Shown here: positions 46,334-61,271 of the stretch, in pieces
How positions within the stretch are numbered: the stretch's first letter is position 1
Layout of the letters: the number at the start of each line of letters is the position of its first letter
Assembly: GCF_005886345.1 (NCBI RefSeq)
Contig: NZ_PNEC01000054.1
Coordinates: forward strand, 1 to 64,000
DNA from: Pseudoalteromonas phenolica
GTDB lineage: Bacteria > Pseudomonadota > Gammaproteobacteria > Enterobacterales > Alteromonadaceae
DNA length: 64,000 bases
Direction: 5' to 3'
The notes under the pieces: model-generated
Told to the model about the DNA's origin: nothing
What the model saw: only the letters and a program-made list of their open reading frames with translations
Databases searched by the model: none
Position numbers and translations under genes: made by a program

Positions 46334-46660
46334 TTAATTCTGTTGTAAGCTTTCGTCTAACTTAGTCAGTAGACTTAAAATCTGTGGATATTGCGGGTGT
46401 GTGGCAAAGCTCATTTCAGCCATGGGGGCAATCGACATATTGACTGGTAGCGGCATACCTTGCTCTATCATCAAGGTCAATTTAGGAATAAACACAAACT
46501 GCAACCACTGCTCAAATGTCATCACATCACAACAAAATGGCGCTGTAGAATTTAGCTTTTCAGCTTCAATGCTTTCACTTTGCCAAAGCTTGGCGATGCG
46601 TAATACCGCTTCGAGCTCTTTCAATAAGGTATAAACTGCTTGGTATTGGGCGTGACTCAT
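46334..46660 (-). CDS. yqcC: YqcC family protein
   Basis: This 108-residue all-helical protein matches the YqcC family in sequence (MTFEQWLQFVFIPKLTLMIE) and in position before truC. The function is unknown. The start is ATG at 46658-46660, rather than the preceding TTG. In E. coli the gene next to yqcC on the other side is csrB and then syd; here csrB and syd lie 8-14 kb away, beyond inserted genes. Confidence 0.9.
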   Translation of the reverse strand: MSHAQYQAVYTLLKELEAVLRIAKLWQSESIEAEKLNSTAPFCCDVMTFEQWLQFVFIPKLTLMIEQGMPLPVNMSIAPMAEMSFATHPQYPQILSLLTKLDESLQQN

Positions 46661-46800
46661 CAAACCGACTCTTAATAGACTATTTAAAACCCGCGAATTA
46701 TAGCCCAGCTAACTTCTTTACAGTAGCTTTACGGCTTCGCTTATCAAGCGCCGAGAAAATCCGTATAATTCGGCTAATTTAAAATTTGCATGAGCGAACT

Positions 46801-47829
46801 ATGACTGCGCATATTTCTACTTTAGGTGATCTTCTTAACACAGCTGGCACACAGTGGCGTGTTTACGACATGGGTCGAAAAATCACTAAAATTGATAAAG
46901 CCCTCTTCAATCAACTTGAAAACGGTCAGGTACCTTACCCTTACCCGCTTGCTGGTCATGCCCTGATAGCCATTCAATTTTGGGATAACCAAGCCACCGC
47001 TGATCCGTATGTGTGGTTTTTAAAAATGCCCCTTGATGAGCAAAGTAAGTTAGTGCTTGCAAGCCGTGACCACTTCGCAAATATGGTGCTTGAAGCATTA
47101 GGTACTGAGTTAACGGGCGAGCAAGCAGATGGCAAGCTAGACAATAACCCGTATGTATTTACACCTAATGCCAATAAACTTGCCGCGTTCAATGCACTTT
47201 TAAAAACTGAATTAAAGCGCCCTGCATCTCAGTATTATGAATTTACCGAGCAATTTTTTGCTGGCAACTTAACTGACGATGCGTGGCAAAGTATTGCGGT
47301 ACAAGGACTGGCTGATTTCGCCTTTAGACTCGACCACGGCCAAAACAGTGCAAACCTAACTAAAGTGTGGACGAGCTTACCACAAGAGGTGCAGCAGCCT
47401 TTAAGTGCGATGCTAGAACATGTTGAAATTAACACGCAACTTGCTGAGTTATTCTTTGCACAGTGCGAAAAAGCCATCGCTGAAAATAATTTAAACCTAT
47501 TAATTAACAATATGCGTGCACTTTCAGGTAGCAAAGCACAAGGGTTAAAGTCTCAGTTAGTCGAGCAAGTACTAGCAAGCGAGCTCGGCAGTCAACCAGA
47601 CGTGTTGCTTACTCTAGCAGGTCGTTATTGGTTATGCTTTGAAAAACCAGAAGCCCTATTCAAACTACTTGATGCGGCTGCTAATAATGAGCAAATGCCT
47701 GAATTATTCCCAAGTATTTTTGCGGACCTAGTTGCAATTCCGTCACTTCGCCCACACGTACTAGGTATTCTTCGAGCAGAAAATCGCAGCGACACCTTAT
47801 CTCGCGCAATAGGTAGGTTATTCTCTTAA
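46801..47829 (+). CDS. DUF3549 protein
   Basis: This protein of about 342 residues resembles the DUF3549 family of Alteromonadales and Vibrionales. An N-terminal domain (TLGDLLNTAGTQWRVYDMGRKI, then YVWFLKMPLDEQSKL) is followed by a C-terminal helical-repeat region. There is no signal peptide or helix, so it is cytosolic, and its function is unknown. The start is MTAHIST at 46801; the upstream in-frame codon is less well placed. The stop overlaps the next gene (TAATG). Confidence 0.82.
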   Translation: MTAHISTLGDLLNTAGTQWRVYDMGRKITKIDKALFNQLENGQVPYPYPLAGHALIAIQFWDNQATADPYVWFLKMPLDEQSKLVLASRDHFANMVLEALGTELTGEQADGKLDNNPYVFTPNANKLAAFNALLKTELKRPASQYYEFTEQFFAGNLTDDAWQSIAVQGLADFAFRLDHGQNSANLTKVWTSLPQEVQQPLSAMLEHVEINTQLAELFFAQCEKAIAENNLNLLINNMRALSGSKAQGLKSQLVEQVLASELGSQPDVLLTLAGRYWLCFEKPEALFKLLDAAANNEQMPELFPSIFADLVAIPSLRPHVLGILRAENRSDTLSRAIGRLFS

Positions 47830-48131
47830 TGACAACTCTCTGGCTTTTTATTGTTATTGGCAGCGTTATCGGCTTTTTTTGGTATAGCCGTAAAATTGCG
47901 GAAGCCGCAAACGAACATGCACAAAGACAAGCAAAGCAATTGCAAGTGCAGTTGCTCAGTGTCGCCTGTAAAAAAGTGCTACCCGGTATTTTAAAAAGTG
48001 GTCGTTTGGGAATAAAAAGTCAGTTTTTGTTTGAATTTAGCTCAGACGGCGAGAGTTTATATCAAGGTTATTTGTATCTTGAAAATGAAAAGCTAGTGCA
48101 AGCAGATATTCCACCGCATCGCTTGGGCTAA
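47829..48131 (+). CDS. DUF3301 small membrane protein
   Basis: This 100-residue protein has one N-terminal membrane helix (about 3-20, LWLFIVIGSVIGFFWYS). A basic, Gln-rich amphipathic segment and a small beta domain with RQ/GRLGIKSQFLFEFSSDGE and YQGYLYLENEKL follow, as in DUF3301. It is translationally coupled to the DUF3549 gene. The function is unknown. Confidence 0.8.
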   Translation: MTTLWLFIVIGSVIGFFWYSRKIAEAANEHAQRQAKQLQVQLLSVACKKVLPGILKSGRLGIKSQFLFEFSSDGESLYQGYLYLENEKLVQADIPPHRLG

Positions 48132-48309: not shown

Positions 48310-49365
48310 TTATTCTGAAAAATAATTTTTTGGAATAGTAAGCTGCTTTTTCTTATTCACAACAATTCCTCCGCAACGGTTAAAGCTTTCGAAAAACTTC
48401 TCTCCATTGGTAAGTAATAAGCTACGAATCTTTACTTTGGTATCATTTATTTCACCATAAAAAATGCCATATCTAATATCTCTATGAGTTATCTGATTGC
48501 CGTTAACTTTTTCTAGATCAAGCGCTGATTGACTATTTGGCAGTGCTACCCCTAGATCTATTGTTGGTGAAGTTTGCATTTTTAATTCTAATAGCTGGTG
48601 CTTTAAATCTGGATACTTACCTAAATCACTAAACTGTTCATACCCTAAAACCTTGCAAACCAGAGAATGTAATTTGTCCCCTCGTTTTCGCTCTTGATCT
48701 ATTTTAGGAGCTTCAAATTCAGTACCGATCAGTGTTTTGAGTCGCTCAAATAATGACACAGCGCTATACAACTCTTTGTTCTTTGGGTCTTCTGTCGGGG
48801 ACTTACTCGATAAATCAATAATTTCGTTAGTAGCGAGCAAAGAAAGGCTACTCGTATCCTTTTTTATCAACAAGGAAGTCTGTAAATGATCTCCACCAAA
48901 TGTTGCTTGATACTTTTTTGTTAATTTTCCTGTTCTGTCCCAAAAAATTACTTCACTACCTAGCGGTATTTTGACCTCACTTATAATCGAGTTTTTGTCG
49001 ACTCGAATAAGAACGTACTTTCGGTGAGCTGCTAATGCTTCGTTATATACTTGTAAGTTGTTTCTTTTCTGGACATAGATATCGAATTGTAAGCATGGAA
49101 AGCTTGGTTTGACTCTCTTGAAGCTATTAGGGGTAGGAAAACCAAGAGCTTCACAAACTAATTTTTTTGCTTCCTTTGATCTAGTCTTTAATGCAAAGTT
49201 TGCCAAAGACATGCCTTTCAATTTCTGATTTAGGATCGCTACTAGTTCTTCTCTTGTTAACCAAAGATTAGGATCGCCAATATCGATGCTATCGTAGATC
49301 GAATAATCTGATTTTTTTATGTTTTCGACTTTTCTTTGAGCGTTTTTTAAAACCTTTGAATCCAT
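48310..49365 (-). CDS. putative type II restriction endonuclease, paralogue 1
   Basis: This 351-residue protein shares roughly half its residues with the product of 51283-52338 along its whole length, so the two are paralogues. The likely nuclease site is a PD-(D/E)xK motif near 255-265 (PDLKHQLLELK), after the conserved DQERKRGDKLHSLVCKVLGY. The N-terminal half (LWLTREELVAILNQKL) may bind DNA. It lies divergent from the methyltransferase, and a C-box-like site sits 61 bases before its start. The REase family was not identified; the role comes from the motif and context. Both copies look intact. Confidence 0.65.
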   Translation of the reverse strand: MDSKVLKNAQRKVENIKKSDYSIYDSIDIGDPNLWLTREELVAILNQKLKGMSLANFALKTRSKEAKKLVCEALGFPTPNSFKRVKPSFPCLQFDIYVQKRNNLQVYNEALAAHRKYVLIRVDKNSIISEVKIPLGSEVIFWDRTGKLTKKYQATFGGDHLQTSLLIKKDTSSLSLLATNEIIDLSSKSPTEDPKNKELYSAVSLFERLKTLIGTEFEAPKIDQERKRGDKLHSLVCKVLGYEQFSDLGKYPDLKHQLLELKMQTSPTIDLGVALPNSQSALDLEKVNGNQITHRDIRYGIFYGEINDTKVKIRSLLLTNGEKFFESFNRCGGIVVNKKKQLTIPKNYFSE

Positions 49366-49425
49366 ATTATTTTTCTTTTCCTAAGGAATAAGCTAGATAT
49401 CTTTGGGAAGAGAAATGATTGAGTT

Positions 49426-49458
49426 TTGATGACTTTAAGTCTACACACTATAAGTAGC
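49426..49458 (-). promoter_or_regulatory. C-box-like operator upstream of restriction gene 1
   Basis: A 33-bp segment is identical, except for one base, to 52603-52635 upstream of the controller gene. On the reverse strand it reads ACTTATAGT-GTG-TAGACTTAAAGTC, a dyad like the C-boxes bound by C proteins of type II R-M systems. Its place in the gap between divergent genes would let the controller act on restriction gene 1 and possibly on the methyltransferase. Confidence 0.65.
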
Positions 49459-49609
49459 TAATTAGGTTTGTTCACTTCTAAGGCGTATTAATTAATTGAT
49501 CAATATGAAGTATTTTCGATTAGGAGAAACTAAGTGAATTAACAGTGTGTATTAGCCGAATCATCATGTTAATCTTCATATATATGACGACGATAAGTAG
49601 AGGTATAAT

Positions 49610-51286
49610 TTGTTAGAAGTTGCAGAAAGATATGAACACGTAGAGTGCAGAAAAAGTGAAGGAGCGCACTATACCTCTTCTCAATTATCTAATTTTGTTT
49701 CGCAAGAATTAGTGAGCTTCAACAGCAATTTCGCAGACCAAAAAATAGTTAGAATTGCCGATCCTGCAATAGGTGACGGAGAGCTAATAATATCTCTACT
49801 AAGTCGCATCAATGACAACAAAGAAATCGAAGTATTCGGGTTTGATACAAATGAAATTTCGTTAGAGAAAGCTCAACGAAGAATAAATGAGCTTTTCCCA
49901 AATGTTACTTTTAAAGCTTATTTTGGAGACTTTTTAGATCAGTCATTAAGTCATGAATTCAATGAAATTAAATTTGATTTTATTATTGCTAACCCGCCTT
50001 ACATTAGAACTCAGGTACTTGGAGCCGAAAAAGCACAAGTCTTAGCCAAGCAGTTTGGTTTAAAGGGACGAGTTGATATTTACCAAGCTTTTCTAGTCGC
50101 AACATCAAAAGTTCTAAGTCCCAATGGTGTTGCTGGTTATATTGTTTCAAATAGATTTCTTACAACAAAAGGAAGCGGTACCCTAAGAAATATACTTTCT
50201 GACTTGTATTCGATTGAAAAAATCGTAGATTTTGGTGATACAAAGCTATTTGAAGCTGCTGTTCTTCCCGCAGTAATGTTCTTTAAACTCAAAGTTCAAA
50301 ATCATGATCATACTGAGTTTGTTTCAATTTATGAGAGTACAGAAAGTTGTAACTCAGAAATTGTCAGCGATTCACCTATTTCGGCACTAGAACATGAGGG
50401 AGTGATATCCTGTTCAAATGGTAAAACTTATGAGGTTAGAAAAGGTTTTCTTACGTATGACGCTTCTCCCAAAGACGTATGGAGAATACAAGATACCTCG
50501 TCTGAAATTTGGCTAAATAATATAGAAGAAAGAACCTATTTACGTTTTAAAGACATAGGTAAAATTCGTGTTGGTATAAAAACAACAGCTGATAACGTTT
50601 TTATCAAAGACAACTGGGAAGAAGAGGTTGGTGTCGTACCAGAGCTTGTACGCCCTTTAATCACTCACCATGTAGGAAACAAGTATACTCAATCTGTGAC
50701 TCAGAGATTGAAAGGTGTGTTATACACTCATACCACTGTTAGTGGTAAAAAACGCCCTGTTTCCATTGAAGATTATCCTATTTCAGAAGAGTATTTAAAT
50801 TCTCACAAAGAACAATTATCTAGTAGGAACTATGTAATCAAAGCCAAAAGAAATTGGTGGGAAATTTGGGTTCCTCAAAACCCAGAGTTATGGAGTTCTC
50901 CAAAAGTTGTTTTCAGGGATATTTGTGAAAGCCCTACTTTTTGGTTTGACGACACTAACTCAATTGTAAATGGTGATTGTTATTGGCTTGTAAAAGATAA
51001 TGAGGAACTAGAAGACAGTATCTTGTTCTTGCTTCTGGCAGTAGCTAATTCAAAGTTCATTGAAGACTACTACGATATCAAGTTTAACAATAAGTTATAT
51101 TCCAACAAACGAAGATTCATGTCTCAGTATGTTGAAAACTTTCCGTTACCTGACCCTAATTCGGATATAGCATTAGAACTAATAGAGCTTGTTGAAGCTC
51201 GAATGAATTGTGAGACAGATATTGAGAGAACGAAACTGGAATCAGCTATTAATTCTCTCGTATATCAGGCATTTGGATTAAATTAG
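49610..51286 (+). CDS. type II adenine-specific DNA methyltransferase
   Basis: This 558-residue N6-adenine methyltransferase has the SAM motif I at IADPAIGDGELIISLL (near 51-66) and the catalytic NPPY in FIIANPPYIRTQ (near 126-137). The SAM-motif-first order is of gamma type. A C-terminal target-recognition region of TaqI/Eco57I style (about 300-530) includes WWEIWVPQNPELWSSPKVVF. It protects host DNA from the cognate nuclease. The start is TTG, with AGAGG upstream and no nearby in-frame ATG. The stop overlaps the convergent restriction gene 2 by 4 bp. Confidence 0.85.
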   Translation: MLEVAERYEHVECRKSEGAHYTSSQLSNFVSQELVSFNSNFADQKIVRIADPAIGDGELIISLLSRINDNKEIEVFGFDTNEISLEKAQRRINELFPNVTFKAYFGDFLDQSLSHEFNEIKFDFIIANPPYIRTQVLGAEKAQVLAKQFGLKGRVDIYQAFLVATSKVLSPNGVAGYIVSNRFLTTKGSGTLRNILSDLYSIEKIVDFGDTKLFEAAVLPAVMFFKLKVQNHDHTEFVSIYESTESCNSEIVSDSPISALEHEGVISCSNGKTYEVRKGFLTYDASPKDVWRIQDTSSEIWLNNIEERTYLRFKDIGKIRVGIKTTADNVFIKDNWEEEVGVVPELVRPLITHHVGNKYTQSVTQRLKGVLYTHTTVSGKKRPVSIEDYPISEEYLNSHKEQLSSRNYVIKAKRNWWEIWVPQNPELWSSPKVVFRDICESPTFWFDDTNSIVNGDCYWLVKDNEELEDSILFLLLAVANSKFIEDYYDIKFNNKLYSNKRRFMSQYVENFPLPDPNSDIALELIELVEARMNCETDIERTKLESAINSLVYQAFGLN

Positions 51287-52338
51287 TCGTTAAAAAAATT
51301 TGTTGGCAAAGGGATTTGAATTTTCTTATTAAGAACTTTGCCTTCAAATCTTGAAAAGTGTTCAAAAAACTTTGTCCCTGTAACAATATAAAAGTTACTT
51401 ATAACAACTTTCTTATTTTCAATAGATCCATAAAAAATAGCGTACCTTACGTCACAGTGTCTGATCTGGGTTTGTTCTATTTTGTTAATGTCTAACTTTG
51501 ACTCACTATCTGGGCAAATCAAGCCTAAATCTATTGTTGGTGAAGTTTGCAGTTTAACTTCCAATAGCTGATGCTTTACGTCTGGGAAAGTCCCATGGTC
51601 ATTAAATTCTTTATATCCGAGAGCTTTACAAACCAGAGAGTGTAATAAGTCTCCTCGTTTTCTTTCTTGATCTGCTTCTGGTGCATCAAACTCTTTACCA
51701 ACAATATTTTTTAAAGACGCATATAGCTGCTCTATGCTCAACAATTGACTCTTTTGGGGTGAATTAGTTGGGGAGTAGTTCGATAAGTCTAAGTTACCTT
51801 CTGATACTATTGCTTGAAGGTTGTCAGTATCTGATTTAGATAGTAATAAAGCCTCTTCTACGGTGCCCGAATACTTTGCCTGATACTTTTGGGTCAACTT
51901 ACCTGTGGTATCTAACACTACAAGATCACTACCAGTAACTACTTTAACTTTTGTGATAATTGAATTTTGATTTATTCGAATTAATACGTATCGACGCTCA
52001 ACGTCTAGTTCTTCATTCCAAACTTGTAAGTTATTAGATTTCTGCACATAAGTGTCGAATTGCTGACCAGTAAACCTTGGTTGTACTTTTTTGAATGAAG
52101 AAGGTAATGGGTATCCAAGTGCTTCACAAACTATTTCCTTAGCGACCTTAGACCTTGTTCTTAATGCTAACCCTTCAAAAGAGTACCCAACTAGTTTTTT
52201 ATTAAGAATTGCCGACAACTCTTCACTTGTAAGCCAAAGTTTTGAATCACCAATATCGATGTGATCGTAAATTGAAAGATTTGAGCTACTAATATTTTGA
52301 ACTTTGGTTGTGGCGATCTCTAAGGTGTTTAATGTCAT
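51283..52338 (-). CDS. putative type II restriction endonuclease, paralogue 2
   Basis: This 351-residue protein is the same length as paralogue 1 and aligns end to end with it. The PD-(D/E)xK candidate site is PDVKHQLLEVK near 255-265, preceded by DQERKRGDLLHSLVCKALGY. Its ATG overlaps the controller stop as ATGA, so controller and nuclease are translated together, the usual C-R operon logic. It is convergent with the methyltransferase. With paralogue 1 it may form a heterodimer, or the two may be separate enzymes. Confidence 0.65.
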   Translation of the reverse strand: MTLNTLEIATTKVQNISSSNLSIYDHIDIGDSKLWLTSEELSAILNKKLVGYSFEGLALRTRSKVAKEIVCEALGYPLPSSFKKVQPRFTGQQFDTYVQKSNNLQVWNEELDVERRYVLIRINQNSIITKVKVVTGSDLVVLDTTGKLTQKYQAKYSGTVEEALLLSKSDTDNLQAIVSEGNLDLSNYSPTNSPQKSQLLSIEQLYASLKNIVGKEFDAPEADQERKRGDLLHSLVCKALGYKEFNDHGTFPDVKHQLLEVKLQTSPTIDLGLICPDSESKLDINKIEQTQIRHCDVRYAIFYGSIENKKVVISNFYIVTGTKFFEHFSRFEGKVLNKKIQIPLPTNFFND

Positions 52339-52565
52339 TGAGTATCCTTACTTAATAAATGTGGAACCGAGGTATTCAGAGTTTTAGAAAGGGTTTCTAG
52401 TGTGCTCAATGTTACGTTTCGTTCGCACCTTTCAATCGAGCCAATATAGGTTCTGTGAAATCCACACAGTTCTGCCAACTCCTCTTGTGACAGGCTGTTT
52501 TCTCTTCTGAACTTTTGCACATTTTCAGAAAGAGTTACCAACAGAAGCTTGCTTGGTTTTCTCAT
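52335..52565 (-). CDS. C-protein type controller of the R-M system (HTH_XRE)
   Basis: This 76-residue helix-turn-helix protein has LVTLSENVQKFRRENSLSQE, then LAELCGFHRTYIGSIERCER and LSTLETLSKTLNTSVPHLL. It matches the small C proteins that delay nuclease expression after a type II R-M system enters a new cell. It is coupled to restriction gene 2 by a 4-bp overlap. The dyad at 52603-52635, 38 bases before its start, is the expected site for autogenous activation and repression. A second copy lies before restriction gene 1. Confidence 0.85.
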   Translation of the reverse strand: MRKPSKLLLVTLSENVQKFRRENSLSQEELAELCGFHRTYIGSIERCERNVTLSTLETLSKTLNTSVPHLLSKDTQ

Positions 52566-52815: not shown

Positions 52816-53637
52816 TCAACTCCAACAGGACACTTTTTCTAAAGAATTCTCATACTCTACTGGCGACAGATCACCATTAGCCGTATGAAGCCTTTCTAAA
52901 TTGTAATATCGCATATATTCAACAACGTCATTTATCATATGCTCACGAGTTGGTTGTGGTACTTTTAGTAGCCAATCATGCTTTAAACTGCCGAAGAATC
53001 TTTCAACCACTGCATTATCCCAGCAAGCTCCAACATCACCCATACTCGCCCTGATATTGAACTGATTAAGTAGGTTGCGATAACGTCTACTCGTATACTG
53101 TGAGCCTCTATCAGAGTGGAATACCAAACCTTTAGGCGGTCTTCTTAGGTTATAAGCTTTAATCATTGCTTTCATAACCAAATCAGTCGTCATGCGCTTA
53201 TCTATATGCCAACCTACTATACGACGTGAATATAAATCCATTACGATGGCTAAGTACATCCAGCCTTCGCCAGTCTTCAAATACGTCACATCACCAGCCC
53301 AAACTTGGTTAGCGGCAACAGGATTAAAGCTTAAGTTAAACAAATTATCTGCAACTGCGTCAGAGTGCTTACGTTTGGTTGTTACCCTATATGCTACTCG
53401 TTGCCTAACAGTTAAATTTAACCGCGCCATTAGCTTTCTGGTTTTATAGAATGTTATTTTAAAACCTTCTTTACGTAAGTTCTTACACAACTCACGGTAG
53501 CCTAAGCTCTCTCGACTTCGTTTAAACAGCTTTTTGGTTCTACGATACAGGTGTAATTCATCTGCCGTTATAAGCTTTGCAGGCCGCTCTAGCCATGCGT
53601 AATAACTTGAGCGACTCACCTGCATGACTGAGCACAA
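52816..53637 (-). CDS. IS3 transposase OrfB (DDE integrase core)
   Basis: This 273-residue frame carries HTH_21 and rve integrase-core features: VWAGDVTYLKTGEGWMYLAI with the first catalytic Asp, HSDRGSQYTSRRYRN with the second, and DVGACWDNAVVERFFGSLK with the Glu. This is the IS3-family DDE triad. The active transposase would normally be an OrfAB fusion made by -1 frameshifting at the A6G site upstream. Here the orfA frame is broken, so full transposase cannot be made. The stop lies within the terminal repeat. Confidence 0.9.
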   Translation of the reverse strand: MCSVMQVSRSSYYAWLERPAKLITADELHLYRRTKKLFKRSRESLGYRELCKNLRKEGFKITFYKTRKLMARLNLTVRQRVAYRVTTKRKHSDAVADNLFNLSFNPVAANQVWAGDVTYLKTGEGWMYLAIVMDLYSRRIVGWHIDKRMTTDLVMKAMIKAYNLRRPPKGLVFHSDRGSQYTSRRYRNLLNQFNIRASMGDVGACWDNAVVERFFGSLKHDWLLKVPQPTREHMINDVVEYMRYYNLERLHTANGDLSPVEYENSLEKVSCWS

Positions 53638-53973: not shown

Positions 53974-54124
53974 TTAACACCTCAATAATTGGATCATTTT
54001 CCATTATTAAAGTGTCCTGTCTAATTAAATCAGTTCACCTTGCTCCGCAACGTGTATTTTGCACGAAAAGTCATTTGAGGTGAGAAATCAGACATAAAGT
54101 CGATACGGCTGAAAAACCAGACGC

Positions 54125-54550
54125 CAGAAAGAACTAAGGCGCAACATAAGTCGCGCCTAAAGTTGACAACATCCATGATAGCTTCCAAAGCCTAAATCCT
54201 GTTTTATCTTCCGCTGAATGGTTATCTTCCATCGACAACCAAAAGTCCATTTAAAGTCCTATACACGTCCTGTGTTCCTCATATCCTAAATCCGCTTCGC
54301 AAAATCCTATGCGCTCCTAGTACACCCTGTACTCCATCCTCATCCTAGGTATCATCCTAATACCTGTAACCATCCTGGTTTCCGCTTCACCCATCTTTGG
54401 GCTGTCCTCACACTCCTGTGTGTATCCTATCTCCATTGTGCAACTCCGTTACACGCCTCATCCAGAGGAACCTGTTGAGCTTCTTGCCCTAGCACTTAAT
54501 CCATAACCTTGTGCTTATTCCGTTCTTCCTATCCCTTTGCCTTCCTGACA
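54125..54550 (-). ncRNA. csrB: CsrB-family regulatory RNA, copy A
   Basis: This untranslated RNA of about 425 nt sequesters the translational regulator CsrA. The reverse strand is crowded with GGA motifs, many in the loops of short hairpins: CACACAGGAGTGTG, ACCAGGATGGT, GGTATTAGGATGATACC and GTACAGGGTGTAC. This matches the CsrA-site consensus. The 5' end GTCAGGAAGG is placed by comparison with copy B, and the RNA ends at AGGCGC...GCGCCT followed by a U-rich tail. Its -10 (TAAACT) is weaker than that of copy B. E. coli csrB lies between yqcC and syd, as here. The ends are estimates. Confidence 0.85.
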
Positions 54551-54707
54551 TGATTAAGTTTACGGTAATTTGCCGTGTGCAAAAGCGACTTACGGCAATT
54601 TATTTAGTGTCATTTTATTTTAACAATGAAATACTTGTTATTTTTCATGTTGTTATAGTCAAACCACAGCCAGGGCAAAGTGTTTAAAACACCAAAGCCC
54701 ACAAGCA

Positions 54708-54725
54708 TGTGGGAAATATCTCACA
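54708..54725 (-). promoter_or_regulatory. GacA/UvrY-like upstream activating dyad, csrB copy A
   Basis: The 18-bp imperfect palindrome TGTGAGATATTTCCCACA (reverse strand) has the 6-6-6 layout of the TGTAAG-N6-CTTACA boxes bound by GacA/UvrY/VarA. It lies about 160 bases before the predicted start of copy A, the same place as in E. coli csrB. Confidence 0.65.
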
Positions 54726-54993
54726 GCTAAGTTTCCGATCCGTCCTTATCTAATTTTTTGATTTATCATCCAATATGAGAATCTTGGTCAAAGAAGAAGG
54801 ATAGCTTGATTTCCAACTGCTTAAATTTGAGCTTTGTTAGATTTGCAGTATGCGTTGAATTAAATAAGCATTCGCAACAAGGTTAATTAAGCGAGGAAAG
54901 ACTCAATAGATAAAAGACTTTCTTGTCGAGGTTGTTACCTAAGAAAAGATAAACATTGATAAAATTAGAGGTGATAAAAGAAATAACCTAACG

Positions 54994-55417
54994 CCAGAAA
55001 GAACTAAGGCGCAACATAAGTCGCGCCTAAAGTTGACAACATCCATGATAGCTTCCAAAGCCTATAATCCTGTTTTATCTTCCGCTGAATGGCCGTCTTC
55101 CATCGACAACCAAAAATCCGTTTAAAATCCTATACACGTCCTGTGTTCCTAATATCCTAAATCCGCTTCGCAAAATCCTATGCGCTCCTAGTACACCCTG
55201 TACTACATCCTCATCCTAGGTGTTGTCCTAACACCTGTAACCATCCTGGTTTCCGCTTCACCCGTCTTTGGGCTGTCCTCACACTCCTGTGTGTATCCTA
55301 TTCCTGAGTGCAACTCCGTTACACCTCATCCTGAGTATCCTGTTGAGCTTCTTGCCCTGGCACCTGTCCATAACCTTGTGCTTATTCCGTTTTTCCTATC
55401 CCTTTGCCTTCCTGACA
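54994..55417 (-). ncRNA. csrB: CsrB-family regulatory RNA, copy B
   Basis: This RNA of about 424 nt is a near-duplicate of copy A. Around thirty GGA triplets were counted by eye, many in hairpin loops (ACACAGGAGTGTG, ACCAGGATGGT, GGTGTTAGGACAACACC). A perfect TATAAT -10 (55424-55429) lies seven bases before GTCAGGAAGG, fixing the 5' end near 55417. The 3' end is the AGGCGC/GCGCCT hairpin at about 54996-55029 followed by TTCTTT. The -35 is weak, consistent with an activator-dependent promoter. Two copies suggest redundant or additive control of CsrA. Confidence 0.87.
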
Positions 55418-55423
55418 TGATTA

Positions 55424-55429
55424 ATTATA
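55424..55429 (-). promoter_or_regulatory. -10 box of csrB copy B
   Basis: The reverse strand reads TATAAT, seven bases before the predicted RNA start. The 17-base spacer leads to a poor -35 (CTTTTG). A TGTAAG half-site lies just upstream. The matching position in copy A reads TAAACT, so the two promoters should differ in strength. Confidence 0.65.
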
Positions 55430-55574
55430 CGGTAATTTGCCGTGTGCAAAAGCGACTTACAGCAAATCATTTGTTGTCACATTATTTTAAAAATAAAATA
55501 CCTTTTTATTTTCATATACTTAAATATAAACCACAGCCAAAACAAAGTGCTTAAAACACTAAAACCCACAACCA

Positions 55575-55592
55575 TGTGGGAAATATCTCACA
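55575..55592 (-). promoter_or_regulatory. GacA/UvrY-like upstream activating dyad, csrB copy B
   Basis: This is the same 18-bp dyad as before copy A (TGTGAGATATTTCCCACA on the reverse strand), about 158 bases before the start of copy B and two bases before the GNAT gene's stop codon. Conservation of the site within diverged flanks supports a real function. Confidence 0.68.
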
Positions 55593-55593
55593 G

Positions 55594-56244
55594 CTAACTT
55601 TCCGATCCGTCCGCATCTAACTTTTTATACATCAGCTCACCCGACACTTCACCGAAGGTCATTTGCTCAATCACCTCATATTGGTGCTTTAAGAAGAAGG
55701 CTTTTTGCGCTGTTTGTGTAATGAATACCGCCACGCCAGTGATGTCTTCTTCGGCTAGGTGAAGTTGCTCCACCCCGTTTAATAAGTAATGACCAAGACC
55801 TTGCCCCTGCGCATTCGGATGAATGGCAATTAATGACAAATAAAAACACTCGCCATATTGCTCTAGGGCCGCTCTTATCGCTTGCTCTTTAGCAACCAGT
55901 TGCTTGGTTTGAACATACCCGGCGCTGAGCATGAGTTTTAAACGCCAATGCCAAAAACGCTGCGCTGACAAAGGCCCGTTGGTTGCGATTGCACACGCAA
56001 CACCAACAAGTTGTTTGTCTATAAACGCGCCTAGCATGGCTTGACCACTTTGTGAGAATGTTTGTAACTCTTCGCGAATAAGTGCGCGCAACTTTTTCGC
56101 AAAGTCTACGTCAGAATCTGCAGTTAACACTTGCTTTAGTAATTCATCACTATGATAAGCTTGAAATAGCAGGCTTGCTGCAATGTTTATTTCTTCCGGC
56201 TCCAAATACTTTAGGCTCAGTTGATCTGCTTCTACTATTTTCAT
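55594..56244 (-). CDS. GNAT-family N-acetyltransferase
   Basis: This 216-residue protein has the GNAT acetyl-CoA site: the strand FYLSLIAIHPNAQGQGLGHY gives the Q/RxxGxG/A pattern (QGQGLG near 155-160), followed by the helix LLNGVEQLHL. The N-terminal 90 residues are helical. The substrate cannot be told from sequence. The gene is monocistronic and lies upstream of csrB copy B; read-through from it into csrB is possible because no terminator is visible between them. Confidence 0.82.
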   Translation of the reverse strand: MKIVEADQLSLKYLEPEEINIAASLLFQAYHSDELLKQVLTADSDVDFAKKLRALIREELQTFSQSGQAMLGAFIDKQLVGVACAIATNGPLSAQRFWHWRLKLMLSAGYVQTKQLVAKEQAIRAALEQYGECFYLSLIAIHPNAQGQGLGHYLLNGVEQLHLAEEDITGVAVFITQTAQKAFFLKHQYEVIEQMTFGEVSGELMYKKLDADGSES

Positions 56245-57530: not shown

Positions 57531-57572
57531 TCGCGCTACCCAACAATATACTAACTATAAATGGAAGTTACT

Positions 57573-58235
57573 GTGACAGATAAAATTCATGACGCAGAAT
57601 TGTTGCAAGCAACACTTGCAAAACAAGTCATTACATATAACGAGTTTAATAGCATAAATACCGTTGCAGGTGTGGATGTTGCTTATCATGAACAATCTAA
57701 TCAGGTTGTTGGCGCTATTTCAGTGCTTGACGCTGACACGCTAGAGTTACTAGAAACTCAAGTGAGCATTGAGGAAATTAGCTTTCCTTATGTGCCGGGG
57801 CTGTTTTCTTTTCGTGAACTTCCGCCACTACTGAATGCGTTTGCAAAGCTCACAATCAAACCCGACCTTATTGTTTGTGATGGTCATGGTATCGCCCACC
57901 CGAGGCGCTTTGGTCTAGCGTGCCACTTGGGTGTCAAGTTAAACTTACCCACTATTGGTTGTGCTAAAACTAAACTTATCGGTGATTTTTTGCCAGTAGA
58001 GCAAGCTCGTGGCCAGATGAGTGACTTATTAATTAATGAAGACGTAGTTGGAAAGGTGCTGCGCACTCAACACAATGTGAAGCCGGTATTTGTCTCTATT
58101 GGCCACAAAATCAGTCTAGATACAGCCGCTGAATGGGTATTAAAACTCTCGCCAAAATATCGACTCCCCGAGACCACACGTCAAGCCGATCAACTGGTCA
58201 ATAAAACACTTAAGTCAAAACTTGAGCTAACATAG
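57573..58235 (+). CDS. nfi: endonuclease V (deoxyinosine 3'-endonuclease)
   Basis: This repair nuclease of about 220 residues cuts one phosphodiester 3' of deoxyinosine, starting removal of deaminated adenine. AGVDVAYHEQS holds the first catalytic Asp, FPYVPGLFSFRELP the lesion-wedge motif, and VCDGHGIAHPRRFGLA the second Asp region. The start is taken as GTG at 57573, with GGAAG seven bases upstream. An ATG four codons earlier has no ribosome-binding site. A terminator follows at 58272. Confidence 0.93.
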   Translation: MTDKIHDAELLQATLAKQVITYNEFNSINTVAGVDVAYHEQSNQVVGAISVLDADTLELLETQVSIEEISFPYVPGLFSFRELPPLLNAFAKLTIKPDLIVCDGHGIAHPRRFGLACHLGVKLNLPTIGCAKTKLIGDFLPVEQARGQMSDLLINEDVVGKVLRTQHNVKPVFVSIGHKISLDTAAEWVLKLSPKYRLPETTRQADQLVNKTLKSKLELT

Positions 58236-58271
58236 AAAGCTATATCATTAGAATAGAGATACAAAAATAGA

Positions 58272-58303
58272 AAAGCCCAGCAAGTGCTTACTAGCTGGGC
58301 TTT
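58272..58303. terminator. terminator after nfi
   Basis: A 10-bp perfect stem, AAAGCCCAGC / GCTGGGCTTT, with a 12-base loop lies between convergent genes. A and T runs on both sides make it probably bidirectional. Confidence 0.8.
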
Positions 58304-58340
58304 ACTGATCCAAATCAACACTTTGATTAATAGTTAAAAA

Positions 58341-59228
58341 CTAATCATCTATATTGTCGATTAATATTTCAATATGTGGAAAGTGTGTATCTCTATAAGC
58401 CAAACACTGCTCTAAAGTAACTGCATTCAGTCGAAATGCACGAACGCTCGTCACAGCCGTTATTGGTACTTCTTTTAACGTCTCCAAATTACTCATCGCT
58501 AACTCTTTAAAAAACACTTGATATATAGGCCAATGTTGAGCAGCTTGCAAGATTTCAATAGTCGTACTCTTATCACAACTACTTAACTCTAATTCTATTG
58601 GTGTTTTGCCAATAAAATGAGCAATTGCTGAAAAGCAATCTATTTTTAAAGCCGATTGAGGTAATAGACTGTTTTGTTCAAAAATACTCTTATACTCTCC
58701 ACTAAATTCAATTATTCTGATTTCACCTTTATCATTGAAGTATAGCTGCAGCATCTCTTTAGATGGCCCGTCGTAGATAGCCGTGTATTTTGATATTATC
58801 TCTGGAGATTCCCAATCATAAGAATATTCCATGTTTTCAATTTTATAATAGAGTGATGAGTAACACTCAGGGTCTGAAAAGTACTGTTCTGTGCCATATT
58901 CATAAAAACCTTTAACACAAAAAGTTATCTTTCGAATGTAGTCGCCTTCAAGTACAAATACAGTACCGTCAAAAACATCACCTTGATATGTATATCGACC
59001 AGACTCATCATCAAGAAGCGAGTCTAAAATACAAGGTTGCCGTACTTTAATATACGGGAACTGGTATTCTCCGACTGCTTTACCCTGTTCAAATGCTTGG
59101 CTATTTTTGACGATATCATCTTCAGTATATACAGCTACGCCCGTAAAGGGCGTGCCATGATGATAGTAGAGGCCTTCTTCTAATGATAAAGCCTCAAAAA
59201 TAACTAACGCGGGTGCTTGGTATCTCAT
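58341..59228 (-). CDS. unknown protein with a YwqK/MORN-like repeat
   Basis: This protein has about 295 residues. An N-terminal segment, EGLYYHHGTPFTGVAVYTED, and a second at about 80-97 (RYTYQGDVFDGTVFVLEG) resemble the short beta repeats of YwqK-type antitoxin/MORN proteins. The rest is not recognised. It is acidic and cytosolic, with no signal peptide. The start is MRYQAP at 59226-59228 with GGAAG upstream. It lies in a row with two paralogous acidic proteins, a pattern seen in collections of orphan immunity genes. That role is a guess. Confidence 0.55.
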   Translation of the reverse strand: MRYQAPALVIFEALSLEEGLYYHHGTPFTGVAVYTEDDIVKNSQAFEQGKAVGEYQFPYIKVRQPCILDSLLDDESGRYTYQGDVFDGTVFVLEGDYIRKITFCVKGFYEYGTEQYFSDPECYSSLYYKIENMEYSYDWESPEIISKYTAIYDGPSKEMLQLYFNDKGEIRIIEFSGEYKSIFEQNSLLPQSALKIDCFSAIAHFIGKTPIELELSSCDKSTTIEILQAAQHWPIYQVFFKELAMSNLETLKEVPITAVTSVRAFRLNAVTLEQCLAYRDTHFPHIEILIDNIDD

Positions 59229-59335
59229 GTCATTACTTCCTTGCAAAGCACTTCTAAACAATAAGCGCTTTATTTACTTTGCTGAGTGTTGTGTGAAACT
59301 TTAGTAATCATGATAGTAATAAGCAGTATTTAGCT

Positions 59336-59869
59336 TTAAACACTAAAATCTAACAACGTTAAGTCACCAGAACTTGGCTCTGTGTAATTAGGTAACGCCT
59401 CACCCGGGAAAAAGATATCCCAGACACAGCGTTTTATTAAAAACTTAAGCATTTCCGGGTGGTAGTGGTCTACCTCTTCACAGTCAAGGTCATAATCGCC
59501 AAAGGCTTCTTCCCACAGAACATGACAGCTGCATTGTATACCTCCACTAAACGGATCCTGCTGTTCTTTGTCTGCAACAGTTTGTGAAACAGAGTTAAAC
59601 CCCCACCAGTGAGCCCAATCAGCATCGTATAATGCAAGCATTTCAACTCGCAACTTTTCTTTGCCGTTTTGGGGATAATCTCTTTCTACTTTTTCGTTAT
59701 AACGTTCAACTAGATCGAGTATTCTCAATGTTAGTTGACCAAAATAAGGTTCAGGCAGTTGTCTTTTTTTAAACTCATCTAAATGACATATACCTGGGCC
59801 AAACTCTTCACGTAAAGGTAAAATTATATAATTCAGAATAGGATATATAAGACCAATATGATTACTCAT
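59336..59869 (-). CDS. acidic cytosolic protein, paralogue of 60001-60552
   Basis: This 177-residue protein is rich in Asp, Glu and Trp. Its C-terminal 45 residues (DHYHPEMLKFLIKRCVWDIF then PNYTEPSSGDLTLLDF) closely match the product of 60001-60552. ADWAHWWGFNS corresponds to TWWWLNS there. No domain can be named and there is no signal peptide or helix. Duplicated small acidic proteins of this type are often immunity proteins, but no toxin is adjacent. Confidence 0.6.
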   Translation of the reverse strand: MSNHIGLIYPILNYIILPLREEFGPGICHLDEFKKRQLPEPYFGQLTLRILDLVERYNEKVERDYPQNGKEKLRVEMLALYDADWAHWWGFNSVSQTVADKEQQDPFSGGIQCSCHVLWEEAFGDYDLDCEEVDHYHPEMLKFLIKRCVWDIFFPGEALPNYTEPSSGDLTLLDFSV

Positions 59870-60000
59870 CAGTAACTGCCTTGCTTAGTTGAGAGTATAG
59901 ACATGATATAGAAAGTGCCTTTAACACCGTCGTAGTTATCTTTATTATTTGTTGATTTATTGAATGCCATCTTTTGGGGCAGATGCTTTTATTTAATGGG

Positions 60001-60552
60001 TTAACTCGCTACTAGGTCGCAAAAATCAATATCAAACGGATAATCTAATGACCTAACATCACCTGATTTAGGCTCTGTATAGTTAGGTAGCACTTCATTT
60101 GGAAACATCACATCCCAAACAAACTTTTTAACAAATAACTTTAAAAATTCTGGGTGATAATATTTTAAGATGTATAACTCTTCTAACTCCCAGTTAGGCT
60201 CGTCATTAATACCAATAATATCAAAGTGTTCTAACCAAGCACAGGCAGCAACTACCTGCATACCTTCATTAGGTTGTTTTTGATCTTCCCAAGCTTGTAC
60301 ATCTGAATGCTTGTAACTATTCAACCACCACCAAGTATAGTCATCTTGTTTAAAAGCATTAACAAGGGCATCTTTAACATCACTTTTAGTAAACTTTCCT
60401 TGTTTATATTGAGAGTCGAGGCGATCCAAATAATCATAAATCCCTGTTCTCAACCAACCATATTGAAGCTCTTCGTCCTCAAAGTCCCATGAATAATCTA
60501 TGAAGCAAAAAAATATATGCCCAAATACGACTGATTCTAATTCTCTTAACAC
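60001..60552 (-). CDS. acidic cytosolic protein, paralogue of 59336-59869
   Basis: This 183-residue protein starts at GTG with GAGGGG upstream. It has the same architecture as the neighbouring paralogue, ending KYYHPEFLKLFVKKFVWDVM and PNYTEPKSGDVRSLDY. The N-terminal halves are diverged and share mainly aromatic positions. The function is unknown. The pair arose by duplication, and divergence is strongest away from the C-terminal core. Confidence 0.6.
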   Translation of the reverse strand: MLRELESVVFGHIFFCFIDYSWDFEDEELQYGWLRTGIYDYLDRLDSQYKQGKFTKSDVKDALVNAFKQDDYTWWWLNSYKHSDVQAWEDQKQPNEGMQVVAACAWLEHFDIIGINDEPNWELEELYILKYYHPEFLKLFVKKFVWDVMFPNEVLPNYTEPKSGDVRSLDYPFDIDFCDLVAS

Positions 60553-60671
60553 CTTTACCCCTCACCAATTCTTATACGCCAAATTGTATAAAGTACCGGT
60601 TAATGAACTCAACATACATAGACGCTCTGTAAGCGACATACCATGACATACTAGAGACAATCACATGAATA

Positions 60672-61211
60672 TTAAAACTCAACCGCTTGCAAAAATTTTT
60701 CTAGACTATCAGCCAAAACATGATGTGGCCTTTTGCCGACATACTCTAGCCAGACTTTGCCAGTCTCTAGTTCAACGGTGATCAACAAATCATCTTGCTC
60801 GGTTAAACCGATAAACACTGTATCTGCATGTTTGAGTTTGCGTTTCATCAATACATGACCTGTGATGTTTTGCTGTAAACGCACAAAGTCACCTTCATTC
60901 CACGCTTGTAATAACTCGATTTGATGACCTTCTACGTTGCCAATGATATTGCCCGCATAAAAGCTGCTGTAGAACTCATTCAACGCATCAGGAAAACTAC
61001 ACTCTAACGCGCTTGCTAAATCATCTAAGCTATTTTTTGCTGGCTGCGGCACAGCTTGCCACTGAATTTGTTGCTCGCTGAGCACTTCGCCAACTTCACA
61101 AGGGCTTGGCCAGTCAGCGTCATGATACATGCAAGGTAAAGTGCCATGTTGTTGCTGATAGTGAGATTTAAACTTGTCGTGAAGCTCTGATAAAAGCGGC
61201 TTAATTGTCAT
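60672..61211 (-). CDS. syd: SecY-interacting protein Syd
   Basis: This peripheral inner-membrane protein of about 179 residues binds SecY and checks Sec translocon assembly in E. coli. Family segments are WPSPCEVGEVL, FYSSFYAGNIIGNVEGHQIE and the strongly conserved LLQAWNEGDFVRLQQNITGH. The start is MTIKPLL at 61209-61211, since upstream residues would fall in the promoter region shared with divergent queF. In E. coli syd flanks csrB and yqcC, an arrangement still recognisable here. Confidence 0.93.
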   Translation of the reverse strand: MTIKPLLSELHDKFKSHYQQQHGTLPCMYHDADWPSPCEVGEVLSEQQIQWQAVPQPAKNSLDDLASALECSFPDALNEFYSSFYAGNIIGNVEGHQIELLQAWNEGDFVRLQQNITGHVLMKRKLKHADTVFIGLTEQDDLLITVELETGKVWLEYVGKRPHHVLADSLEKFLQAVEF

Positions 61212-61271
61212 ACTGTTAACCTGTGTGCGATACGCTATAATACGCGCCATTGTAACCACTATTGGTGAAAC

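Follow-up and report, generated by a model that had tools for sequence, protein, structure and literature searches.

A tandem pair of csrB-type RNA genes in Pseudoalteromonas phenolica and the enlargement of the csrB locus in its genus

Tandem csrB genes are already known from Shewanella. There csrB1 and csrB2 are 420 and 421 bp long, both are reported to depend on UvrY, and they differ in level; a transposase gene splits them in strain MR-1, and by implication they are adjacent in S. putrefaciens CN-32 (PMC3171408). In S. oneidensis csrB1 is reported at 3-10 fold below csrB2, and growth phase changes csrB1 only (PMC3171408). Pseudomonas brassicacearum has the tandem genes rsmX-1 and rsmX-2 (PMC7911923), and csrB3 and csrB4 of Vibrio tasmaniensis are described as a csrB duplication (PMC6262261). 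A review lists Csr/Rsm siblings as distal (PMC4211561). Within Pseudoalteromonas the RNA to compare is Pf1 of P. fuliginea, which was concluded to bind CsrA from glycogen staining in E. coli (PMC9927453). The published assays are promoter fusions and glycogen staining for Pf1, and promoter fusions, gel shift and glycogen staining for Pf2 and Pf3 (PMC9927453, PMC11882849). Here we consider a stretch of 64,000 nucleotides from Pseudoalteromonas phenolica (positions 1 to 64,000 of contig NZ_PNEC01000054.1, assembly GCF_005886345.1), called the window below. It contains two direct repeats, copy A and copy B. We argue that these are very probably two csrB genes, co-orthologues of Pf1, which occupy the slot of E. 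coli csrB, arose by tandem duplication together with their control region and titrate the master regulator CsrA. The csrB identity follows from the gene order in common with E. coli csrB and from a slot that matches that of Pf1 in P. fuliginea.

The pair resembles the Shewanella genes in that two csrB genes stand side by side, here in another genus. The rsmX genes of P. brassicacearum are likewise titrating RNA genes duplicated in tandem, but their RNAs are only about 110 nt long. The V. tasmaniensis genes are duplicated too, but are described as relocated after duplication. E. coli csrB lies between yqcC and syd on the same strand as the pair does, and it has 22 GGA by the same count. However, only one copy is present there and yqcC and syd flank it directly, whereas in P. 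phenolica the interval between these two genes also contains a GNAT acetyltransferase gene, other genes and a mobile island. Pf1 shares with the pair a slot beside the GNAT gene but is a single copy there, with 25 GGA against 30 in each P. phenolica copy. The Pseudoalteromonas pair is a further case of a known kind of RNA. The literature matches listed include no paper that describes tandem csrB genes in this genus, and the matching passages in the main text of the two papers on the Pf RNAs make no mention of them (PMC9927453, PMC11882849).

Each repeated unit consists of the 3' end of the acetyltransferase gene, a control region, the RNA and a terminator. On the minus strand copy B covers approximately 54985-55626 and copy A approximately 54115-54759, with a start-to-start distance of 867-871 bp. 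An earlier note on this DNA, made from the sequence alone, had described two direct repeats of about 0.62 kb. The repeats are as described, but their extent must be corrected since the unit runs upstream into the last acetyltransferase codons. A and B are 87-96% identical in four long blocks; identity is 94.1% over the RNA parts and 83.2% over the 190 nt upstream of them. Searched genome-wide at E up to 0.001, the copy A unit has two locations only, A and B, which are 90% identical. A coding reading of the repeats is rejected: the only open reading frame of at least 60 amino acids within them (55291-55554, plus strand) is present in B and absent from A, which agrees with the claim that they have no conserved protein frame. 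The window genome is a draft in 164 contigs, so the pair might be suspected to be an assembly artefact. But the copies differ at 6-17% of sites depending on the region, and two other assemblies hold a pair, one of them in two contigs. This explanation can practically be dismissed.

The minus strand has 30 GGA in 440 nt of copy A and 30 in 438 nt of copy B. In 1000 dinucleotide shuffles the mean is 15.7 for A and 14.7 for B and the maxima are 25 and 24, so both copies exceed every shuffle, and the earlier estimate of about thirty per copy was right. The plus strand of the same regions has 1 GGA in A and 0 in B. Elsewhere in the window, 440-nt stretches hold 9 GGA at most. We place a CsrB-type RNA of about 420 nt at 54999-55420 in copy B, with its 5' end predicted from the -10 element, and another at 54129-54553 in copy A, whose 5' end is likewise predicted (both minus strand).

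Gene order is the deciding line of reasoning. In E. coli the order is yqcA-truC-yqcC-csrB-syd-queF. The window agrees with this neighbourhood in genes, order and strands. On one side is yqcC (DUF446; 46334-46663) and on the other is syd (60672-61259), while the GNAT acetyltransferase gene (55594-56244) is directly upstream of copy B, all on the minus strand. The GNAT gene was found in all 108 genomes of the genus that were searched. It is true that the pair lies between yqcC and syd, as claimed before, but this is across 14 kb that include a restriction-modification island and a transposase gene. The rest of the pathway is present as well. The genome has one match over the cut-off to the csrA family (PF02599) and one each to UvrY and BarA. 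Together with the GGA density and the gene order, this supports the proposal of the earlier note that CsrB-type RNA genes were duplicated with their control regions.

Two separate GGA clusters are found in 3 of the 108 genus genomes: the window genome, P. phenolica S3663 (G009) and a third genome (G085). A quick, single-gene tree of the GNAT protein unites these as one group (support 100, one change). The duplication is therefore lineage-specific, as had been suggested. The three genomes provide six copies for comparison, and all six retain a GacA/UvrY-type box, a -10-like element, 30-32 GGA and a terminator.

In the predicted folds GGA tend to be exposed, as in a CsrB-type RNA. In the minimum-energy folds 17/30 GGA of copy B and 19/30 of copy A are fully unpaired, and 7/30 in each copy are inside closed hairpin loops. 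The earlier claim that many GGA are in hairpin loops is therefore right that unpaired GGA are common, but the closed loops hold some rather than many. GGA have a mean unpaired probability of 0.78 in B and 0.75 in A; the 60 shuffles of each copy give 0.61 and 0.60. In copy B GGA exceed the rest of the RNA in exposure by 0.39, more than in any of the 60 shuffles (maximum 0.24). The folding energy of each copy is below that of all of its 60 shuffles. One pair covaries in a hairpin with AGGA in the loop, where G-C in B becomes A-U in A and the stem is kept.

Several points weigh against our interpretation. The excess of GGA exposure in copy A, 0.37, is matched by at least one of its 60 shuffles (maximum 0.40). 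Covariation is thin, with 2/106 predicted pairs changed on both sides and kept among the six copies in three genomes, because these copies are alike. In the six-copy alignment variation is lower in GGA columns than in the remaining columns taken together (7/96 vs 57/329, p 0.015). Against other purine columns the difference is not clear (7/96 vs 26/177, p 0.08), and for G alone there is none (4/64 vs 6/70). We have set aside GGA columns as a sign of purifying selection, since the comparison is significant against all columns and not against the other purine columns. A scan for sigma-70 consensus promoters gives none at either start (1 site in all, located elsewhere, against 4.0 expected). The promoter that was claimed at one end of each repeat thus stands as a -10-like element and falls as a consensus sigma-70 promoter. 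The promoter calls rest on comparison with relatives for this reason. Where expression is concerned, minus-strand transcription, UvrY binding, CsrA binding and a dosage effect are all predictions from sequence. Lastly, the Rfam CsrB model (RF00018) scores far below its cut-off of 71, at 28.6 bits for B and 27.3 bits for A.

It must be asked how much the Rfam score means. The weak matches cover 55108-55292 in B and 54237-54421 in A, with E-values of 1.4e-5 and 3.2e-5 in a search of 1.9 kb. At gathering cut-offs Rfam has no CsrB match in the window. Searching both units with this model, the check that the earlier note had proposed, therefore gives matches, but both are under the curated cut-off. 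The relatives do no better. Among the loci of 15 relatives searched at E up to 0.01, the model matches 2 (27.9 and 25.0 bits), and it has no match at that level in the locus of P. fuliginea KMM 216 (L096) or in the locus that holds the pair in G085 (L050). The model is insensitive in Pseudoalteromonas, and the lack of a covariance match is a poor refuter. We therefore file these RNAs as CsrB-type by position and features and not as RF00018 matches. With a low Rfam score the identity rests on gene order and features.

The control regions have the expected parts. A GacA/UvrY-type box, TGTGAGATATTTCCCACA, is found at 55575-55592 in copy B and, identical, at 54708-54725 in copy A, each about 150 bp upstream of the -10 element on the minus strand. 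The box is a palindrome. A degenerate pattern of it matches only these two sites genome-wide; the consensus for boxes of this kind is the published one (PMC3171408). Copy B has the -10-like TATAAT at 55424-55429 and copy A has TAAACT at 54557-54562 (minus strand, coordinates from offsets), just as the earlier note had it. TATAAT is present only in copy B of the window genome, and the other five copies in the clade carry TAAACT. The stems of the intrinsic terminators are at 55007-55028 (B) and 54137-54158 (A), also on the minus strand; the GC hairpin with a U-rich tail seen at one end of each repeat is confirmed as a terminator in both. A terminator-like hairpin (CCCACA..TGTGGG, then T-rich) overlaps the box at 55565-55592 and 54698-54725, and it possibly also ends the acetyltransferase transcript.

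It could be argued that only one copy is functional and that its duplicate is decaying and has no role. Tandem duplications often do not last, the upstream regions have diverged (83%) more than the RNAs (94%), and the consensus TATAAT is found in B, against TAAACT in A. However, every one of the six copies keeps its box, -10-like element, GGA sites and terminator, and 26 of the 32 consensus GGA triplets are identical in all of them. TAAACT is the commonest -10 sequence in the genus (21 of the 37 genomes with any match to the pattern), so the promoter of A is not decayed by that measure. This survey counted only the first hit in each genome, the other 71 genomes gave no hit to the pattern, and the 16 sequences of other forms probably include some that are no promoters. 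We find a decaying duplicate quite improbable.

The same divergence can be read as a split of functions, with the copies driven by different signals as published for Shewanella csrB1/csrB2 and for the Vibrio csrB copies. The two -10 elements differ, the upstream 190 nt are only 83% identical, and S. oneidensis csrB1 and csrB2 differ in level and in their response to growth phase (PMC3171408). Against this, the boxes of A and B are identical, the sequence from box to -10 aligns throughout, and no new operator is visible in the sequence. A split of functions is possible but on balance we doubt it.

The mechanism that we prefer is one in which one csrB gene was tandemly duplicated with its control region. 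Each RNA of about 420 nt would present 30 GGA sites, many exposed between small hairpins and some within them. Each would bind many CsrA dimers and release the target mRNAs from CsrA. With two copies the locus would titrate about twice as much CsrA, and the diverged upstream regions would permit different promoter strengths.

The wider distribution puts the pair in context. A cluster of at least 8 GGA follows the GNAT gene in 102 of the 108 genus genomes, and 6 have none. Among 61 named Pseudoalteromonas loci, which largely come from the same species as the 108 genomes, 56 have a cluster of at least 10 GGA and one has two. The six genomes without a cluster (G005, G007, G098, G106, G108 and G126) also lack any match to the box expression in the 4 kb that follow the GNAT gene. 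Their csrB may have been lost, may have moved or may be too diverged. Outside the genus, 19 loci (L213-L226, L228-L232) have a cluster of at least 9 GGA in two cases only, both from Colwellia (L230, L231). The interval after the GNAT gene holds only 2-4 GGA in two Rheinheimera and two Pseudidiomarina loci.

The flanks of copy A suggest that there was more than one duplication event in the clade. At its upstream edge is a fossil of the last acetyltransferase codons (54727-54759, minus strand), which marks the left edge of the duplication. By eye the fossil is about 33 nt long in the window genome and about 17 nt in G009 and G085, and the latter two have one common left junction of copy A. The spacer between B and A (54762-54984, minus strand) has a full-length match only in the window genome among the 108, and three others match about 30 nt. 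The right flank of copy A (54037-54114, minus strand) agrees over its first 68 nt (87%) with the beginning of what follows copy B, not copy A, in G009. In G085 this flank is matched over 21 nt only, and part of it is a repeat with several occurrences in the G085 spacer. A DUF3301-like gene comes after copy A in G009 and G085, whereas in the window genome this gene (47829-48131) instead adjoins the restriction-modification island and the transposase gene. DUF3301 and DUF3549 are labels that we assume for neighbouring genes without a family match. The simplest account is at least two duplication events, in which the old copy A would have been lost at the island and copy B would have been duplicated again. 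The trees are compatible with this account but do not establish it.

The alternative is a single old duplication across the clade with later exchange between the copies. All three genomes have two copies, and the trees can accommodate this. Topology tests reject none of four alternative groupings (p-AU 0.24-0.33), including the A copies as a clade (0.25) and the two copies of the window genome together (0.33). Against it, the left junction of A in the window genome is unlike that in the other two. The window spacer has no full-length match elsewhere, and the right flank of A matches what follows copy B in P. phenolica S3663. The tree also places the A of the window genome with B copies, namely its own and that of G009 (85/95, not starred). 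We regard a single old duplication as rather unlikely. We have dropped the attempt to date the duplication by trees of the six copies, as four groupings stand unrejected. In G085 the spacer between the copies holds a TwoAYGGAY motif (RF01731, 51.8 bits, cut-off 43) on the opposite strand (L050:2802-2963).

The slot also bears on the origin of Pf1. In P. fuliginea KMM 216 (G069) the slot after the GNAT gene holds a cluster of 25 GGA with the box CGTGAGACATCTCTTACA, which is the box published for Pf1 (PMC9927453, PMC11882849). The 2025 paper counts 25 GGA in Pf1 (PMC11882849) and the 2023 paper 21 (PMC9927453). The KMM 216 slot is thus matched to Pf1 by box, GGA number and species. Pf1 and Pf2 were suggested to have emerged de novo within the genus (PMC11882849). 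The slot of Pf1 is that of E. coli csrB, which argues against a de novo origin of Pf1. A Pf1-type RNA in this position argues for descent with extreme sequence change. Genome G032, which has the same box as KMM 216, does not match copy B at the nucleotide level (E up to 0.001), in a search that did not cover KMM 216 itself. The window genome has a third candidate for a Csr-type RNA, with 13 GGA and a palindrome like the GacA box (L249:2897-3128, contig C122). Its site corresponds to that of a 20-GGA cluster in KMM 216, and we infer that it is of the Pf2 type. The gene beside it is presumably of the iron-transporter type.

The pair is not the only way in which this locus has grown. Cluster size can be measured in 98 genomes, in which no contig end interrupts the cluster. 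In 18 of these the csrB slot holds a single cluster of 50-80 GGA that is 666-1045 nt long. Over all 98 the median is 26 GGA, the lowest 18 and the highest 80 in 946 nt (G033); clusters were joined over gaps of up to 60 nt, so the counts may include a few GGAs from beyond the RNA. Tandem Repeats Finder reports internal arrays in 26 of the 108 genomes, with about 2 to 9 copies of units of 79-81, 87-88, 108-110 or 124 nt that have 5-9 GGA each; 3 of the 26 arrays are reported at double or triple period. Examples of the large clusters, which consist of tandem modules, are G033, G092, G100, G077, G078 and G129 (loci L134, L128, L109, L087, L125 and L082), and strains of P. luteoviolacea are among the large-array genomes. 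Assembly error is unlikely, since five of the large-array assemblies have two or three contigs (G062, G078, G093, G100 and G130). On the GNAT tree the 79-nt array type is one group and the other types need 2-4 changes each. A run of five T inside the cluster is absent in 15 of the 18 and occurs once in the other 3, and each large cluster is probably a single RNA to judge from its sequence. No report of such arrays was among the matches listed, from a search with most subscription journals outside it, and no paper in the literature searched names P. luteoviolacea and CsrA together.

We consider these large internal arrays a more surprising result than the pair. Repeated duplications have enlarged the csrB locus in this marine genus. 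A broader view, which we hold tentatively and with a little less than even confidence, is that the locus is a sponge that evolves its CsrA-binding capacity by copy number, both through tandem duplication of the whole gene and through internal modules of 79-124 nt with 5-9 GGA. If so, there would be single RNAs with up to about 80 GGA, and species would set CsrA availability by repeat number. Repeat number could also shift quickly by recombination between repeats. Within the genus the GGA number at this one locus ranges naturally from 18 to 80. The old question of what a bacterium gains from several CsrA sponges, dosage or separate signals, is thereby testable across species.

The remaining features of the interval concern mobile DNA. 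A type II restriction-modification island at 48310-52565 lies downstream of the csrB pair, beyond the transposase gene. It has an Eco57I-type methyltransferase between two paralogous REase_II-type proteins (55% identical) and a gene for a control protein. Two paralogous nucleases around one methyltransferase look unusual. The transposase gene (rve domain; 52816-53637) stands between the island and copy A, and we take it to be IS3-like. It is absent from that place in G009 and G085. The same is true of about 3 kb at 57538-60665, between the DUF2310 gene and syd, where one open reading frame is presumably endonuclease V-like.

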